Made by a program: the position numbers and the translations under genes. 64,000 bases of DNA from an uncultured Butyrivibrio sp. (lineage in GTDB: Bacteria; Bacillota; Clostridia; Lachnospirales; Lachnospiraceae): contig CAMVNV010000001.1 in assembly GCA_947168935.1 (NCBI GenBank), positions 1-64,000 of the forward strand, given 5' to 3'. The notes under the pieces are model-generated. The model saw nothing but the letters and a program-made list of their open reading frames with translations, did not search any database and was not told where the DNA came from. This document shows, piece by piece, positions 8,344 through 17,115 of the stretch (positions are counted from its first letter, which is position 1; every line of letters starts with the position of its first letter).

Positions 8344-8372
8344 CTCTGTGGTTGTTAGAAAGGATAATTATT

Positions 8373-8681
8373 ATGGCCAAATATATAGAAACACCTACAA
8401 TTGGAGAGATTTTACAAGAAGAATTCATGGAACCTTTTGGATTATCAGCTTATAAACTGGCACAGGCAATACATGTTCCTGTATCTCGTATTCAGGATAT
8501 TCTTCATGGCAGAAGAAAAATCACCGCTGATACGTCCCTACGATTAGCAAAGTATTTTGGTGTATCTGATAGATATTTTTTGGATATGCAAAATGATATT
8601 GATTTAAGGAACTTAAAAATATCAATGGAAAAAGATATCCAACTAATTATCCCTATACAGATAAATTATGAAATAAAGTAA
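8373..8681 (+). CDS. higA: HigA-family antitoxin (XRE HTH)
   Basis: ATG at 8373 inside ORF 8352..8681; TIGEILQEEFMEPFGLSAYKLAQAIHVPVSRIQDILHGRRKITADTSLRLAKYFGVSDRYFLDMQ. Confidence 0.9.
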   Translation: MAKYIETPTIGEILQEEFMEPFGLSAYKLAQAIHVPVSRIQDILHGRRKITADTSLRLAKYFGVSDRYFLDMQNDIDLRNLKISMEKDIQLIIPIQINYEIK

Positions 8682-8803: not shown

Positions 8804-9583
8804 TCACGAATTATTCTCCAGCACTCCGCTTGAAATCGTAGACACGATAACTTTCATATCCGTAAGAAGGCTTCTTTCCGTGATATATCTAAGATCAAGC
8901 TCTATCCACTCATCAAATGGCATTGTATTCTTTCTTGGGCTGCTCTGCCAGTAACATACGAGTCCCGGCTTAACCATAAGGCGCTGGTTCTGATATTCAT
9001 CGCACTTATCCTGCTCATATACAGGAAGTGGTCTTGGACCTACTATGCTCATATCGCCTTTGATGATGTTTACAAGCTGTGGAAGTTCGTCTATGCCGTG
9101 CTTTCTAAGTATCTTACCAAGTCTTGTAACTCTTGGGTCGTTAGTCATTTTGAATGCCGGGCCGTCCATTTCGTTCTGGGACAGGAGCTGCTCGTGAAGC
9201 TGGGGAGCATTCTTGATCATTGTACGGAACTTATACATCTTGAATACTTCGCCATCTTTTCCGGTTCTTTCCTGTGTAAAGAAAGGCTTACCACCATCTT
9301 CAATACTTATGGCTATAGTAACAAGAAGCAGTATAGGAAAAAGAGCTATAAGTGCCATTGCAGAAAGTATTATATCCAGAGCTCTTTTGGCTATTCCATA
9401 TGCTCTTTTTTCTTCAAGCACAAGATTCGTATATCTTCTTGGATATATGATATCTGCACTACGCTGCTGGGGTACTTCAATAACTTCAAGGTGAGGATAT
9501 CTTCCAGGTTCCTTGACAGGAGCCAGTGATGACCATTCTGATGATAGAGTTAGTTCTGGGCCTCCGAGTATTAGTTCCTTCAT
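8804..9583 (-). CDS. Sugar-phosphate transferase (polyprenyl glycosylphosphotransferase, WcaJ/EpsL-like)
   Basis: KRALDIILSAMALIALFPI, KFRTM, LRKHGIDELPQLVNIIKGDMSIVGPRP. Confidence 0.92.
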   Translation of the reverse strand: MKELILGGPELTLSSEWSSLAPVKEPGRYPHLEVIEVPQQRSADIIYPRRYTNLVLEEKRAYGIAKRALDIILSAMALIALFPILLLVTIAISIEDGGKPFFTQERTGKDGEVFKMYKFRTMIKNAPQLHEQLLSQNEMDGPAFKMTNDPRVTRLGKILRKHGIDELPQLVNIIKGDMSIVGPRPLPVYEQDKCDEYQNQRLMVKPGLVCYWQSSPRKNTMPFDEWIELDLRYITERSLLTDMKVIVSTISSGVLENNS

Positions 9584-9619: not shown

Positions 9620-11599
9620 CTATGCATCCACTTCGGTGTAGAAGACATCTATGATCAGATCATAAAGTGCATCTTCGTCATAGATGAACTCTTCAAAACC
9701 AGATCTCCCTATGATACTCTCTCCCTTCATCTGGTATATATTTGCGGAATCGAAGCTATATTCTGCTGCCTCGTTTCCAAGGTACACTGCTTCATTTAGG
9801 CCTATATCCGTCACCATATATGGAGACAGGGCACTGTAAATTGAAGCAATTGATTTTGGGTCCTCTTTTACTTTTTCCTGAAGAGCCGGTACAAACTCTA
9901 TCAGATACTGCAGTTGTCTTTCAAGGCGTTCATTTGCACTCCAGTCAACATTTATATCCCTATGCTGGGTGTACCAATATGCATCATCTCCTGTAAGCGT
10001 CACCGTTTCTCCCTTACGTAGTGACCTGTACTGCCCTGCTGCAGGAAGACTATACATAACTTTAAGTGTTACTCCGCCGACTGTATCATTTACTGTCGGT
10101 ATAGCTCCCATGTTAATTGATATGTATCCGTTAATTGGAAGCTCATGGAACAGGTTTCTTACTGTTTTAACAGTACGCTCACAGCTTTGTTCTAGTCCAT
10201 CTCCAAAGCCATGCTGAAGGCATATCTGGGCTTCTCCCGTGCCTACGTATATACCTTCTTCATTGTAGACATCTATATCCGTCATAGCATTTCTGTTTAT
10301 AGCTACAATTTTAATTTCTTTATTGTCAGGATCAAGGATCAGGAAAAACATTGCATCAGATTGTCCACCGCTTATACCGTCTTCTCCTTCATGTACCTTG
10401 TCCATGCTGTCGATTCCAAGCACCAGGAATGTTAGGAGGTTAGTATTATAAGCATAGGTCCTACCATCGTATCTGATCCACCCAGGCTGCCAGGAAGATG
10501 CTGATGCTGTAAGAGGCATCTGATCATCTCCTATTGTTACTTCCTCGTACAAAGAAGCTTTAGACATATCAGGAGCCTGATCCTGAGTCCTGCCATATAG
10601 TGACAGACCTCCCGTATATTCCATGAGCCTGTATGCTCCATATCCTATACCTGCAAATCCCACGGTTACCGCAAGTAATATCAGGATTGTATTTCTGATT
10701 ATCCGTAGTACTCGTCTGGCTTTTGAATGATGATGATGCCTGTGTGTGTGATGATGTTCCTGAGTTTTAACAGATCCTCTGCTTTTGATCTGGCTTGGAT
10801 CAAAGCCATCCGGAGTGTTTATAAAATCATCTTCATCGCCATCTTCTTGTATCTGTCTATTTATCTCTCTAAATGTATCTTTATTTTTTTCTTTATAAGT
10901 ATCTCTGTCTCTGGTTTTCTCGCTCGTTTCCTCTTTTGACGATATTCTTGCAAAGAAAACATTCGTATCATCAGCCTTTGAACTCTTAACTCTTTTCTTA
11001 AGTTCCTCATAAGATGGTTCTAAATACTCTTCTCCATCCTCAAGATCGAATACTTTTCTAAGTTCCTCAGTTCTTCGCCTGTCTTCATCCTTCTGCTTCT
11101 TGATGCTGTACTCTCGCTGTCTTTCCTGGGCGAATTTCCTGATTTCTTCCCTGCGTTTCTTTTCAGAAAACTGATATCTGACTTCTTCAGCTCTACTTAC
11201 GAAAGGCTTAGGCGGAGGCGCTTCAGTTCTTATCTCCGCAAGCTGCTCAAGAGCTGTCTTTCTTGGCATGTCAACACGCTTTTCTTCTCTTTCAGGCTTT
11301 TTATAATCTAAGTTCAAGTTATTGATTGAACTTTCATATAGTTGCCTATTGTTTACAAAAGAGTTGGTCCTTGACGGCCTTATAGCATTTTTGTTAGACG
11401 ATATCCATTCATCAACTTCGCTATTGTCATTTGATCTATGCCTTTGACTATTTATATCCTCAAAGTCGAAGTCCGGAGCAGAGGCCTTGCCAGATCTTCT
11501 GTCCATCATAATATCGCCCATATCATAGTCCATTACAAGGCTGTCATCTTCTTTAAGGGGAGAGGTATCTTTATTAAATTTTCTCATCTTCCTATGCAC
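9620..11599 (-). CDS. LytR-CpsA-Psr (LCP) family protein with long charged cytoplasmic N-terminus
   Basis: TM segment followed by FLVLGIDSMDK...GQSDAMFFLILDPDNKEIKIVAINRN...HGFGDG; N-terminal ~300 aa low-complexity/charged with HHHTHRHHHH before the TM. Confidence 0.85.
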   Translation of the reverse strand: MHRKMRKFNKDTSPLKEDDSLVMDYDMGDIMMDRRSGKASAPDFDFEDINSQRHRSNDNSEVDEWISSNKNAIRPSRTNSFVNNRQLYESSINNLNLDYKKPEREEKRVDMPRKTALEQLAEIRTEAPPPKPFVSRAEEVRYQFSEKKRREEIRKFAQERQREYSIKKQKDEDRRRTEELRKVFDLEDGEEYLEPSYEELKKRVKSSKADDTNVFFARISSKEETSEKTRDRDTYKEKNKDTFREINRQIQEDGDEDDFINTPDGFDPSQIKSRGSVKTQEHHHTHRHHHHSKARRVLRIIRNTILILLAVTVGFAGIGYGAYRLMEYTGGLSLYGRTQDQAPDMSKASLYEEVTIGDDQMPLTASASSWQPGWIRYDGRTYAYNTNLLTFLVLGIDSMDKVHEGEDGISGGQSDAMFFLILDPDNKEIKIVAINRNAMTDIDVYNEEGIYVGTGEAQICLQHGFGDGLEQSCERTVKTVRNLFHELPINGYISINMGAIPTVNDTVGGVTLKVMYSLPAAGQYRSLRKGETVTLTGDDAYWYTQHRDINVDWSANERLERQLQYLIEFVPALQEKVKEDPKSIASIYSALSPYMVTDIGLNEAVYLGNEAAEYSFDSANIYQMKGESIIGRSGFEEFIYDEDALYDLIIDVFYTEVDA

Positions 11600-11635: not shown

Positions 11636-12280
11636 TCAGTTCACAACTATTGCAAAGCTTCCCATATCGTCCATTGTTACGGACACCTTACCGCCTACAA
11701 CAACTGATGATGCAGCTGTAACAGATCCGTCCTTATGGATCTGATAGATAGTAACGTTTCTACCTTCATATCCATTGCCAACACCGTAAGTTGATGTGAA
11801 GGTGCCAAATCCAGACCATACAGATACTCCGGCTACATACATACGAAGCTTAAATGGTCCTATTACGGTCTTCCCACCGGATACACTGTTAACATATGAC
11901 ATAAGTGTATCTGACAGGCTGTCTGTTCCGGGCTTTGGAGATATAGCAGTTGATACTGCTCTTCCATCTGTAACACCGCTATAAGTTGATGTGATACGTA
12001 CAGGAGATCCACTTCTGGGGATTACATATGCAGCACCCATACTGTTACAAGGAACAGAGGAACTTCCACCTCCACCGCCTGATGATCTTCCGCCGCCACC
12101 TCCGCCGCCAGAATTTCCTCCGCCGCCGGAGCCGCCACCATTAACATATATGTTGGTGATGATGGTTACATTTGCAGTCGTAGGGCTTGTTGCAGCACTT
12201 GTACTAAATGCACATGTGTAGCAAAGAAGGAGAACTGCTGCCCAGACTGACATGATTTTCTTTTTCATAACATACCTCAT
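11636..12280 (-). CDS. Secreted protein with Gly/Ser-rich linker and C-terminal beta-rich domain; function unknown
   Basis: Signal peptide MKKKIMSVWAAVLLLCYTCAFSTSAA; GGGSGGGGNSGGGGGGGRSSGGGGGSSS tract; Ig-like C-terminus. Confidence 0.75.
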   Translation of the reverse strand: MRYVMKKKIMSVWAAVLLLCYTCAFSTSAATSPTTANVTIITNIYVNGGGSGGGGNSGGGGGGGRSSGGGGGSSSVPCNSMGAAYVIPRSGSPVRITSTYSGVTDGRAVSTAISPKPGTDSLSDTLMSYVNSVSGGKTVIGPFKLRMYVAGVSVWSGFGTFTSTYGVGNGYEGRNVTIYQIHKDGSVTAASSVVVGGKVSVTMDDMGSFAIVVN

Positions 12281-12283
12281 TTC

Positions 12284-13123
12284 TCACTGGATCTGTGAAC
12301 CTGAATACGTACTGTAAACAAAATATCTGTTAGCTGAATCTGTTGTGGAGCCTGCTGATATCGTAAGCATTCTCCATCCGTTAACTACTGCTTCCTTGAG
12401 ATAATCTGCCTTCTGCAAGTCCATACTTCTTGATGCATATATCTGATCTATATATCTACTAAAAACATCATAATCGTAACAATTAGTATTAGTTAGTATG
12501 TTTGTATCTCCACCGCTCGTTGCTGCGAATACTCTAAACTCAAGTACATATCCCGGGATATACAAGTAAATAAAGGGATTAGCTTCAAAGTACTCTGGAT
12601 TACCATATATCCCAAGGTACTCAAGTGGTCCACCACTCTCATTACATCCATAGATTATGGTATTAGGATCTGTATAATCCGCGTTATTGCCTATATCTAG
12701 GTGAAGTGCTCCGCCTTCCTGGATATTCCCCTTGGCATTATGAGTATCATAATAGGTCTGGTCTCCTGACTTCTGCATTACAGGAACTGTTATTCCAGCT
12801 TCAGGTATTACCAGATAGGCGACTGTATCAGGGTTTTCAGATAGTATAGTATCCCAATCAGGCTTTAGATCAGGTACTGTGCCTTGGCATACGAAGGCAT
12901 CACTTTCGCCGCCAACAAGTACTTCACCTTCTTCAAGGTCCCCTAAATAGCTTTCTGCAAGGCCTTCTTCCAATACTTCTACAGTTGACTGATAGGTTGC
13001 TCCATCAGATAATGGGGCACTTTCATCATCTATTGAAAAAGGTCCAATCTTTCCGCATCCGCTTACAAAAGATACTGTTACAAGACAACAGATAGTGCAT
13101 ATCAAGTCGAAGCCTCTACGCAT
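12284..13123 (-). CDS. Lipoprotein homologous to class B sortase, predicted catalytically inactive
   Basis: Lipobox-like VSFVSGC; VAYLVIPEAGITVPVMQKSGDQTYYDTHNAKGNIQEGGALHLD...TIIYGCNESGGPLEYL...MLTISAGSTTDSANRYFVYS aligns by eye with SrtB; His (YGHN) to Cys, Cys (TLSTC) to Gly. Confidence 0.75.
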   Translation of the reverse strand: MRRGFDLICTICCLVTVSFVSGCGKIGPFSIDDESAPLSDGATYQSTVEVLEEGLAESYLGDLEEGEVLVGGESDAFVCQGTVPDLKPDWDTILSENPDTVAYLVIPEAGITVPVMQKSGDQTYYDTHNAKGNIQEGGALHLDIGNNADYTDPNTIIYGCNESGGPLEYLGIYGNPEYFEANPFIYLYIPGYVLEFRVFAATSGGDTNILTNTNCYDYDVFSRYIDQIYASRSMDLQKADYLKEAVVNGWRMLTISAGSTTDSANRYFVYSTYSGSQIQ

Positions 13124-13162: not shown

Positions 13163-13927
13163 TTACTGATAATCTCCGTAGTTGCCATAGTATTTGCCAT
13201 AATACTTACCATAGTATTTGCCATAATACTTACCATAAAATTTATTTCCATCCATGGAAACCATGTTCATGACTGCACCCAGTACGTGGCATCCTGCCTT
13301 ACGCAACTGGCTTTGAACATTTTGAACGAATCTATAGCTTATCCTGCCGCTTGCTATAACGAGAACTGTACCGTCGCACTGTTTGCCGACGATAGCGGCA
13401 TCAATTACTGATCCAAGAGGCGGTGTATCGATAATGATGATATCGAATACGTCGTGAGCCTCTTTTAACAGCTGACCGAATACTTCACCCCCAAGTAGCT
13501 CAGAAGGCATCGGTGTGTTCGGTCCTGAGAATATCATGTAGAACCCAGGTTCATCTGTCTGACAGAGACAATCATCTATCTTGCAGTGACCTACGAGGAA
13601 ATTGGTAAGGCCATACCTGATCTTGCCATTCTTGAAATGCTCTCTCATAACAGATTTTCTGAGATCTGCATCAATCAAAAGTACCTTCTTATCTGCCTGA
13701 GCAAAGGTTCTTGCAAGCTCAAAGGCAACCTCTGATTTGCCCTCATTAGGTGTACTTGATGTAATTGCAATCGTACGTATGTCCCTGCCACTGAACTCGA
13801 TATTGCTTCTAAGGGTCTTGTATGCTTCCCTTGTCCTAAACTCAAGTTCATTATCCCTTATCATTACTCTCTGCATGTATTCTCCCCTTAAGGATCTTTG
13901 AAAATAGATAATCAAAGTCCTACGCAC
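13163..13927 (-). CDS. CpsD/CapB-family bacterial tyrosine kinase (likely start MQRVMIRDNE near 13876)
   Basis: SSTPNEGKSEVAFELARTF (Walker A), VLLIDADLRKS (A'), IIIIDTPPLGSVIDA (B), Tyr-rich C-terminal tail. Confidence 0.92.
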   Translation of the reverse strand: MRRTLIIYFQRSLRGEYMQRVMIRDNELEFRTREAYKTLRSNIEFSGRDIRTIAITSSTPNEGKSEVAFELARTFAQADKKVLLIDADLRKSVMREHFKNGKIRYGLTNFLVGHCKIDDCLCQTDEPGFYMIFSGPNTPMPSELLGGEVFGQLLKEAHDVFDIIIIDTPPLGSVIDAAIVGKQCDGTVLVIASGRISYRFVQNVQSQLRKAGCHVLGAVMNMVSMDGNKFYGKYYGKYYGKYYGKYYGNYGDYQ

Positions 13928-13996: not shown

Positions 13997-14860
13997 TTAT
14001 GACCCAGTGTTAGTTTGAGAATCATCCATATCACCTGTTCCTATATGGCTTATCTCTCCGGATCTATCATGTTTTTTGGATTTCTTATTACTTTTACTAT
14101 TCTGGGAACCTATATCCTGAGTAACATTTTCATCAAATGGAATGATACCAAGGGCGCTGATGCCCAGATATCTCTCGACATCTTCAGAAGTCTTGACTGT
14201 ATCATCCACAAGAAAATGTATGATAAGAAGCACTGCAACAAGAACTGTTCCAAGTGCGAAGCCTCCCAGTGTCCATAAGATGCAGCTGGGGGCTGACTTT
14301 TCAGTTGGAAGATTAGCTACTTCAACTACGTTTACAGCATCTATATCCATAACGTTTTCGATATGCTCAGCACTGACTTCCCTTATATAGTTAGCCATTG
14401 TCTGAGCCGTGTATGGATCTGTATCTGTAACCGTGATAGCCACAATACGAGTATCTGCAGGAGTATTCACAGATACTTTTTCCAAAAAATCATCATAATC
14501 ATATCTGTCACCTATACCTAAAGTATCAATGACAGATTCAAGTACATAGCGGCTCTTGATAAGTTCAGCATAATCCTTAGTCAGCTGAGAACCAACCTGA
14601 AGGTCTGTATAGATATTGCTGGAATCAGCATTGTCCTTATCAAGAACATATATTTTAGTAGTCGAACGGAATTCTTCAGGAAGCACGAATTTACTGAAAG
14701 CAAATCCTGCAACAGCACATCCTACCGCGATAATCGCAATAAGCCACAAGTGGTGAACAAGTACACCTATGATCTCACCAATGTCAATCTCTATTACAGC
14801 ACTGCTGTTCTGAGCATTCTGGCTTACATTTACATCAGTCTGTTCCATACGTACCTCCAA
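13997..14860 (-). CDS. Wzz/CapA-type chain-length determinant (polysaccharide co-polymerase)
   Basis: IDIGEIIGVLVHHLWLIAIIAVGCAVAGF, EFRSTTKIYVLDK, C-terminal TM. Confidence 0.88.
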   Translation of the reverse strand: MEVRMEQTDVNVSQNAQNSSAVIEIDIGEIIGVLVHHLWLIAIIAVGCAVAGFAFSKFVLPEEFRSTTKIYVLDKDNADSSNIYTDLQVGSQLTKDYAELIKSRYVLESVIDTLGIGDRYDYDDFLEKVSVNTPADTRIVAITVTDTDPYTAQTMANYIREVSAEHIENVMDIDAVNVVEVANLPTEKSAPSCILWTLGGFALGTVLVAVLLIIHFLVDDTVKTSEDVERYLGISALGIIPFDENVTQDIGSQNSKSNKKSKKHDRSGEISHIGTGDMDDSQTNTGS

Positions 14861-14866
14861 ACTCTT

Positions 14867-15598
14867 TTAACGTAAAAGGTTCATAGCGTTCTCATATAGA
14901 ATTTCTCTGGCGTAATCTTCTCCGTATTTTTTTCGTATATACTGGGCACAATCAAGCATATCAGGAATACGACTGCCCGTATCTCTGTGCGCATCCGTGC
15001 CTACAAAACTGATTTTTTGCTGGGATAGAAGTTTTCTTACAAATCTGCCCACGGGGTTAAACATTCCCATCATTACGCTGTCGGAATTGATCTGAAGTCT
15101 CACTCCTCCATCTATTATTTCGTCAATTCTTGATTTATCTTTATAGAAACATTCATATCTTTCGCAATGTGCCAGGATCGGATTCCATCCCTCGTAACAC
15201 AATCGCCTTAATCCCTCCGAAATGTAGCTGTACTCATCCGATGGATTAAATTCAACTAGTATATCCTGTGATTCTCCCATTGGAAGAGCATTACCTTCTT
15301 CAAGCCTTTCTGGAAGTGTTTCGTCGTAGTATAGTTCGTTGCCTGGATATATCTTGATTTCAATGCCTGCTTTGTCTGCTTCTTCCTGAAGCTGCATGAC
15401 CCTTTTGTGGATGCCTTTGGGCGATACGGACTTAACATAAATTTTGTTATGGGGAGTTGCGATAATTGTCCGTATATTATTTTCATAGGCAATCCTTAGC
15501 ATGTTAAGTGACATCTCCATACTTTTGGAGCCGTCATCAACACCCGGGATCACATGACTATGCATATCCACAAAACCATACTTAAAATTTTTGCTCAT
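14867..15598 (-). CDS. CpsB/CapC-family PHP-type tyrosine phosphatase
   Basis: DMHSHVIPGVDDGSKSMEMSLNMLRIAYENNIRTIIATPH, AHCERY, GTDAHRD. Confidence 0.92.
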   Translation of the reverse strand: MSKNFKYGFVDMHSHVIPGVDDGSKSMEMSLNMLRIAYENNIRTIIATPHNKIYVKSVSPKGIHKRVMQLQEEADKAGIEIKIYPGNELYYDETLPERLEEGNALPMGESQDILVEFNPSDEYSYISEGLRRLCYEGWNPILAHCERYECFYKDKSRIDEIIDGGVRLQINSDSVMMGMFNPVGRFVRKLLSQQKISFVGTDAHRDTGSRIPDMLDCAQYIRKKYGEDYAREILYENAMNLLR

Positions 15599-17115
15599 GT
15601 TGTTCTCTCTTCTTGCTTCTTTTCTTTCGGGACACCTATGTTCTGGTACAGTCTTGTCATGAAAGCAACTTCCTGTTCGATGTTAAGACCTGCATTTTTG
15701 AATATCCTCTCTACCATCTGAGGGGATGCGCTTCTGTTAAGAAGATAGCTCCTTTGGTCAAACTGCATATGAGTTTCCTGCTCATCCTTACCTGCCAGAA
15801 GACGATGAAGATTCATAAGTGTATCGTAGTCATAATATTCGTCGCCATCTGATCTTGCCGGAGCTGTGATACCCATTTTGTTCATCTCATCAAGGATATG
15901 ATAAGCCCAGGCTTCAGGCGGATTATTAAGGGAAAAATAGTTTATAAGTCCTGTCAGATTTATATCTTTTGAAATAGTATCAGATGCCATGCATGGAAGT
16001 CCAGACGCCTGCGCTTCCATGAGGGCTGCAGGTGCACCATTAACATTAGCAGGATATATGAAATAGTCCATAATTTGATAGAAATCGTATACATTGCCCC
16101 AGGTACCAAGGAAAAGAATATTGCTTATAATTCCAAGCTGCGCCGCTATCTGAGCACAATCCATAAGCTCTTCTCCATCGCCTATAAGAAGGAGCTTCAT
16201 GGGAAGACCTTTCAGGTTATCGAACTCTCCTGTTGGGTCTTCTTTTAATATCTTCTGCATCCAGGCAAATACGTGGAACAGAAATTCATGGTTCTGGTTT
16301 TTATGGAACTGAGCCACGCATCCAAAAACATATGTTTTATCAAGGCCAAGTTTATCCCGGAAAGCATCACGTATTTTTCCATTGTAAAGGAAGTTCTGGA
16401 TATTGATACCATCCTGTATTACATGTATCCTTCCGGAATCTACTGCAATATCTCCAAAGATAGCTCTTGCTGCTCCAACGCTTGATGCAAAGCATATGTC
16501 TGCGCAGTCTTCTTTTAGTATAGGTGATGTAAAATTAGCCTTTCTTATTTTCTGCACAAGTCCAGCGTCTATTACGCTTCCCACATGCATGATAGTGATT
16601 GCTCCGTGTCTTTTTGCAAGAGGAAGATATATTGATGCAGCTGAATACATATGCCCTTCAACGATCTTCCATTCACCTTCGTGCTGGGCAAAAAAGCTGT
16701 TTACCAGCTCTGTATATCCAAAAAGATTATTGCTGTTATACGTCGGTATGGCATAAACATGGCCACCAAGCCTTGTTATCTCAGCATCAAAAAATCCTGC
16801 TCTTCTATGGCGCAGTAGTTCATCAGATGATGGAAATTCTTTACCTGTCGGGGTTGGATCTCTTGTAATCAGAAAATCGAACTGAATCTGGCTTCTGTCA
16901 AAATTTCTGTACAGGTTCATGATGTGTGCCTGCATTCCGCTTAGATCTATGGAATTAAGTACATGAAGTATTCTGATCTTGGCTTTGGGAACATTTTCAG
17001 ACACACGAATAGTAGACGGTATACGCTTTTTAGCCTGCGTTACCTGGGGGTTGTTTTTCTCGCGTTCTCTTCTTCTAACGTCAGATGCGCTTTCAATGGT
17101 CTCGAAAAAAGACAT
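15595..17115 (-). CDS. Glycosyltransferase family 4
   Basis: RILHVLNSIDLSGMQAHIMNLYRNFD, GVPA(A)LMEAQASGLPC-type GT4 motif. Confidence 0.87.
   Translation of the reverse strand: MSFFETIESASDVRRREREKNNPQVTQAKKRIPSTIRVSENVPKAKIRILHVLNSIDLSGMQAHIMNLYRNFDRSQIQFDFLITRDPTPTGKEFPSSDELLRHRRAGFFDAEITRLGGHVYAIPTYNSNNLFGYTELVNSFFAQHEGEWKIVEGHMYSAASIYLPLAKRHGAITIMHVGSVIDAGLVQKIRKANFTSPILKEDCADICFASSVGAARAIFGDIAVDSGRIHVIQDGINIQNFLYNGKIRDAFRDKLGLDKTYVFGCVAQFHKNQNHEFLFHVFAWMQKILKEDPTGEFDNLKGLPMKLLLIGDGEELMDCAQIAAQLGIISNILFLGTWGNVYDFYQIMDYFIYPANVNGAPAALMEAQASGLPCMASDTISKDINLTGLINYFSLNNPPEAWAYHILDEMNKMGITAPARSDGDEYYDYDTLMNLHRLLAGKDEQETHMQFDQRSYLLNRSASPQMVERIFKNAGLNIEQEVAFMTRLYQNIGVPKEKKQEERTT

Follow-up and report, generated by a model that had tools for sequence, protein, structure and literature searches.

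A genus-wide family of predicted pseudosortases, with an apparent substrate degenerated alongside, in exopolysaccharide clusters of Butyrivibrio

An open reading frame at positions 12284-13123 (minus strand) of the window, the 64,000-nucleotide stretch of DNA from an uncultured Butyrivibrio sp. analysed here, raises the question of what a sortase-like lipoprotein lacking the catalytic residues of its family does within an exopolysaccharide (EPS) assembly operon. The frame is open throughout, has a ribosome-binding-site-like GGAGGGAGAAG 5' of its ATG and encodes a product of 279 aa, here called the pseudosortase (pSRT). The sequence-only reading had placed the gene inside such an operon, between a BY-kinase and a Gly-rich secreted protein, and both the neighbours and the location are supported, the cluster being conserved across the genus. 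On the minus strand, a tight run leads from a glycosyltransferase (15595-17115) into the assembly genes, namely a CpsB/CapC tyrosine phosphatase (14867-15598), a Wzz/CapA-type chain-length/activator membrane protein (13997-14860), a BY-kinase with a polysaccharide tyrosine autokinase domain and a Tyr-rich tail (13163-13927), pSRT, the Gly-rich secreted protein GlyR with its signal peptide and C-terminal beta-domain (11636-12280), an LCP (LytR-CpsA-Psr) glycopolymer transferase that keeps its catalytic arginines (9620-11599) and an initiating sugar-phosphate transferase (Bac_transf, 8804-9583). Just downstream of these genes, on the opposite strand, lies a small ORF (8352-8681, plus strand) that by eye resembles a HigA-like helix-turn-helix protein.

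The first point to be settled was whether the protein is a sortase at all. It matched the class B sortase model TIGR03064 with an E-value of 5.8e-14 and 52 bits, below the curated cut-off of 153.75, and the Pfam Sortase family PF04203 with 13.2 bits, below the cut-off of 26.6; as judged on these curated models, the sortase homology is real but weak. The sequence also matched class B sortase chains in the PDB, down to an E-value of 1e-8. An AlphaFold2 model, built with the window protein and its relatives as input, had pLDDT values mostly above 90 from residue 90 onward, and its top Foldseek matches were all SrtB, with 5yfk first (E 5.5e-13) and 5b23 superimposed with a TM-score of 0.86 over the target and an rmsd of 2.4 A. 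The predicted structure contains the SrtB beta-barrel fold with N-terminal helices, in agreement with the earlier claim that the class B pattern runs through the whole fold; a prediction unlike a sortase, which would have spoken against that claim, was not obtained. At the N-terminus, the proposed lipobox VSGC (13055-13066, minus strand) was confirmed, with lipidation predicted at Cys23, so that the protein carries the signal peptide with lipobox Cys by which bacterial lipoproteins are recognised.

Departures from active class B sortases are found chiefly at the catalytic residues, since the positions conserved in both the active and the dead sets in a column comparison (such as P, Q, Y, G, N, D, F, L and T) belong to the fold core. 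His, Cys and Arg are each invariant in the active SrtBs tabulated (82/82/82; n=82). In the window protein, the His of the YGHN motif is Cys (YGCN; codon 160, 12644-12646, minus strand), the Cys of TLSTC is Gly (TISAG; codon 258, 12350-12352, minus strand), at a position that is hypervariable in the clade, and the Arg is retained (codon 266, 12326-12328, minus strand), all as originally read from the letters.

The same two residues are missing from the orthologs of the protein in the genus. Among 79 species-level Butyrivibrio genomes, the closest orthologs of the window protein had identities of 90, 79 and 52%, followed by a set near 32%, and all were without the His and Cys. While a search for related loci with the single window protein as query found none, 48 loci, in Butyrivibrio, were recovered with an alignment of group II as query, group II being a further and more numerous set of degenerate lipoproteins found among the neighbours of other sortase matches; the window protein and its nearest relatives form group I. 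Across 173 non-redundant sortase homologues, His and Cys were both kept in 98, both lost in 75 and lost singly in none. All 75 dead homologues were from the genus Butyrivibrio, and every relative examined outside it kept both residues. Pseudosortases were carried by 68 of the 79 genomes, 63 by the group II profile and five further ones with group I alone (the window genome, G250, G251, G268 and G269); across 397 genomes of the family, the best match outside the genus scored 174 bits, against at least 218 for group II inside. A lipobox-like pattern was present at 66/75 dead loci versus 21/98 active ones. The window genome encodes two other sortases (L001 and L002, on its contig C18); among them, in a pilus-type locus, is an intact class C-like enzyme whose neighbouring proteins carry LPxTG-like signals.

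Within the dead set, the two groups are not alike. The catalytic Arg is present in the window protein and in eight of the nine other group I members, and is Gln in 62/66 of group II. In the latter, the position of the catalytic Cys is occupied by V, D, Q, R, T, E, K, L, N, I, P or S, and that of the His mostly by S, K, V or A. Two Cys residues (C126 and C197 in the first-row numbering of a 12-row alignment) do not vary among the group II rows, are conserved neither in active SrtBs nor in group I, and could possibly form a new disulfide in this extracellular protein. Only group II pseudosortases have a conserved C-terminal tail of approximately 20 residues (GCLVGDVAGxIDRxVDYSDPE), which may be a new binding element. 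Taken together, the change of Arg to Gln, the residues conserved in group II alone and the tail suggest that the two groups might differ in function.

An enzymatic activity persisting through other residues, such as Cys160 of the window protein, would fit the presence of Cys at the His position in both this protein and that of G269, as well as the two extra invariant Cys of group II. However, Cys160 was rejected as a substitute nucleophile, since the orthologs at 90% and 79% identity have Ser at this position and others have Lys, Asn, Arg or Glu; the group I alignment contains no invariant His or Ser, its lone invariant Cys is that of the lipobox, and the extra Cys of group II are missing from group I. 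The sequence-only reading had named an alternative His or Cys at the active site, or orthologs with an intact triad, as findings that would overturn it. No conserved substitute was found and no ortholog retains the triad, and residual activity is accordingly regarded as very improbable.

Loss of catalytic residues could also reflect a decaying pseudogene, a sequencing error or an alignment artefact, and decay does appear to occur in the genus: in Butyrivibrio sp. FCS014, a second pseudosortase copy (L246:6001-6824) is split in two frames, apparently a decaying duplicate. Set against this single frameshifted gene are 75 non-redundant loci from which both residues are gone, the conserved operon, the confidently predicted SrtB fold and a low dN/dS, and we give such an explanation almost no credence. 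Among the window gene and the two orthologs nearest to it, dN/dS was 0.084-0.169, similar to the 0.098-0.121 of the LCP gene, and the pseudosortase gene is thus under purifying selection. The lost residues, combined with a low dN/dS and retained fold positions, point to a maintained pseudoenzyme rather than a pseudogene, pSRT having the features by which pseudoenzymes are recognised (fold-defining residues kept, catalytic ones lost, and selection). The case resembles the CspC pseudoprotease of C. difficile (PMC6636752), in which catalytic residues were lost and the fold kept, with binding or regulation presumed, although pSRT has a different fold.

How often the dead state arose is less certain. 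Groups I and II each make up one side of a branch (support 99), and a quick tree required two changes for the dead state. A tree uniting all dead rows was better by 30 log units and was not rejected (p-AU 0.918), although long branches may contribute to this result, and one or two losses are therefore both possible. The association between a dead enzyme and a missing sorting signal, described below, thus spans approximately 75 loci but reflects just one or two evolutionary events.

The genomic context of the dead sortases was highly consistent, as they were nearly always found within a CpsB-Wzz-BY-kinase-LCP cluster. In most of the genus, the group II order is CpsB-Wzz-BYK-(small ORF)-LCP-pSRT-partner, and the window-type order is CpsB-Wzz-BYK-pSRT-GlyR-LCP-PGT; an intermediate arrangement is seen in G268 (L071), where a group I protein occupies a nearly group II order. 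The small ORF of group II clusters, of approximately 140-190 aa between BY-kinase and LCP (L079:10991-11464 and equivalents), is missing from the window cluster; the one example examined was membrane-anchored and weakly resembled a bacterial Ig-like domain (E 0.005). The second group I clusters (L066-L069) have a divergent 92-aa helix-turn-helix-like gene between LCP and pSRT, and in L066 and L068 a protein of approximately 170 aa downstream of GlyR is, by eye, like a NusG/LoaP-type antiterminator, with ORFs of the same size in L067 and L069. Active SrtBs occur in comparable clusters elsewhere in Lachnospiraceae (L072, L161, L175 and L249) and in a second cluster within Butyrivibrio, ordered Wzz-SrtB-LCP-partner-BYK (L132, L138, L144, L151 and L152). 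In G250 and G251, the nearest kin of the window genome, both active and dead clusters are present: the active cluster, with an SPRTG protein as partner (L151 and L152), lies on another contig (C2 in each genome), so that the two versions share one cell.

The neighbourhood survey proposed in the sequence-only reading also showed that GlyR is homologous to the secreted proteins beside active SrtBs. Active SrtBs adjoin a secreted protein that ends in SPKTG or SPRTG followed by a hydrophobic segment and a basic tail. Profile comparison of the partners from dead and active clusters gave E-values of 7e-12 for group I (the window Gly-rich type) and 2.4e-11 for group II, whereas the dead-cluster partners end right after the shared beta-domain, without PxTG, transmembrane segment or basic tail. 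With partner profiles, 74 of the 75 dead loci had a partner without PxTG, none had one with it and at one locus no partner was found; among active loci, 50 had a PxTG partner and 11 did not. Eight of those 11 carry near-variants (SPKTAD, SAKTGE, SAQTGE, SQKTNE and similar) with transmembrane segment and basic tail, and the remainder are cut, masked or spurious. All five well-covered active EPS-SrtB clusters in Butyrivibrio itself have an SPRTG partner. No sorting-signal substrate is encoded nearby at dead loci, those of the window type included; an apparent PxTG at six of them belonged to an unrelated multi-membrane protein that lies at a distance of approximately 2-3.5 kb and lacks a sorting-signal tail, and was discarded. 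A Pfam search of the partners returned no curated domain.

These pairings, of active SrtB with a signal-bearing partner and of dead sortase with a homologous signal-less one, suggest that the pair degenerated together. Active EPS-cluster SrtBs would process the neighbouring secreted protein, and GlyR, as a homologue of that protein minus its signal, is a better candidate ligand for pSRT than the EPS itself. The scaffold role suggested in the sequence-only reading remains reasonable and now has a named candidate partner. The predicted structure of the partner was poor (mean pLDDT 53.5), and no pSRT-partner interface is proposed on that account.

Published systems provide the nearest comparisons. 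In Mediterraneibacter gnavus, capsule display depends on SrtB4, an active SrtB of a capsule cluster, and likewise on the LCP and phosphatase of the same cluster; the active SrtB version is needed for gut colonisation as well (PMC13121745). The role of SrtB4 was established from mutants; candidate sorting-signal targets were noted near sortase genes, and its substrate is not named there (PMC13121745). pSRT shares fold, ancestry and an LCP and BY-kinase/phosphatase context with such capsule/EPS-cluster SrtBs, which adjoin a secreted GlyR-family protein, but differs in the absent His and Cys, the lipoprotein rather than transmembrane anchor, the neighbour without a sorting signal and a score far below the curated TIGR03064 cut-off. 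In Actinomyces oris, the LCP protein LcpA glycosylates GspA, which is then anchored by SrtA (PMC6381275). The Butyrivibrio clusters likewise combine an LCP with conserved arginines, a secreted protein and a sortase-family protein in a surface-glycopolymer context; however, A. oris has a catalytically active sortase and a sorting signal on GspA, and protein glycosylation would be hypothetical for Butyrivibrio. The arrangement had been suspected to be undescribed, and in keeping with this a literature search for pseudosortases, which left most subscription papers outside its reach, found no such case.

The explanation that we consider probable is that the pseudosortase derives from an EPS-cluster SrtB, that enzyme and neighbour lost covalent anchoring together, and that the partner is today kept at the membrane through non-covalent binding to the lipoprotein. 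The ancestor would have been an active SrtB within a capsule/EPS cluster, its likely substrate the secreted sorting-signal protein of the adjacent gene, and the active Lachnospiraceae pair would still anchor a polysaccharide-associated protein to the wall. Within Butyrivibrio, the sorting signal of the neighbouring protein would have disappeared while the enzyme gave up His and Cys and acquired a lipobox, which removed both halves of the covalent-anchoring step together. The pseudosortase, held by its lipid on the outer membrane leaflet, would carry out no transpeptidation and would still bind the C-terminal domain of its partner without cleaving it, a reversible hold beside the Wzz/LCP machinery in which a membrane tether replaces the covalent wall bond. 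The pair may thereby control how EPS is retained on the surface or let go from it. The presence of a partner nearby in 74/75 loci and the 3 bp between the pseudosortase stop and the GlyR ATG in the window fit joint production. We infer both the binding itself and the control of EPS retention; non-covalent holding at the membrane is the most likely form that the binding would take.

Two other readings give the fold a different task. pSRT may be a structural or regulatory subunit of an LCP/Wzz complex, for example one that positions or activates LCP, the relation to the secreted neighbour being secondary. In group II clusters LCP is the immediate neighbour of pSRT, in the window it lies no more than two genes away, and the two stay together even in rearranged clusters (e.g. 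L066-L069 and L105). Dead-cluster LCPs also keep all catalytic arginines: the counterparts of R149 and R266 of A. oris (PMC6381275) are present in 71/71, and the idea that LCP is a second lost enzyme, raised by an Asp to Asn change beside the catalytic Arg, was rejected, as every one of them retains the Arg and the Asn also occurs in 12/63 active-cluster LCPs. From gene content, the sortase step appears to be the sole step gone from dead clusters, with LCP and the CpsB/Wzz/BY-kinase machinery intact. However, the partner gene is an equally faithful neighbour of pSRT (74/75 loci), and where the sortase died it is the partner whose sorting signal has gone; the subunit reading is accordingly held as a minority possibility. 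Alternatively, a wall-bound capsule may have switched to a released slime, with pSRT serving as chaperone or release factor to a partner that leaves with the EPS. Ropy EPS is known from Butyrivibrio proteoclasticus, and the EPS of Butyrivibrio is copious (PMC2914790), dead-sortase partners carry a signal peptide and no anchor, and in M. gnavus active SrtB4 is needed for keeping the capsule on cells (PMC13121745), but the lipid anchor of pSRT suggests retention, and we think a release function unlikely. As for the preferred reading of a tethered partner, its boldest form, that a sortase-substrate pair was converted once in Butyrivibrio ancestry into a lipoprotein receptor and a soluble ligand deciding whether EPS is kept or released, is offered tentatively; if true, covalent anchoring would have been rebuilt as a reversible system, with the sortase fold as a pure binding module.

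What had been a single-gene observation is, on the comparative sequence evidence, a pseudosortase family that spans the genus and alongside which its apparent substrate has degenerated. Pipelines that annotate these genes as class B sortase would, on the residues present, be wrong as to activity. Sortases have been studied as enzymes and as tools, and no report was found of a conserved family abandoning catalysis. For active relatives, the survey names a probable protein partner for the capsule-display sortase step, for which the M. gnavus study named none (PMC13121745). The co-occurrence of active and dead versions in the same genomes, such as G250 and G251, provides a natural experiment on the sortase step in capsule/EPS attachment in Lachnospiraceae.
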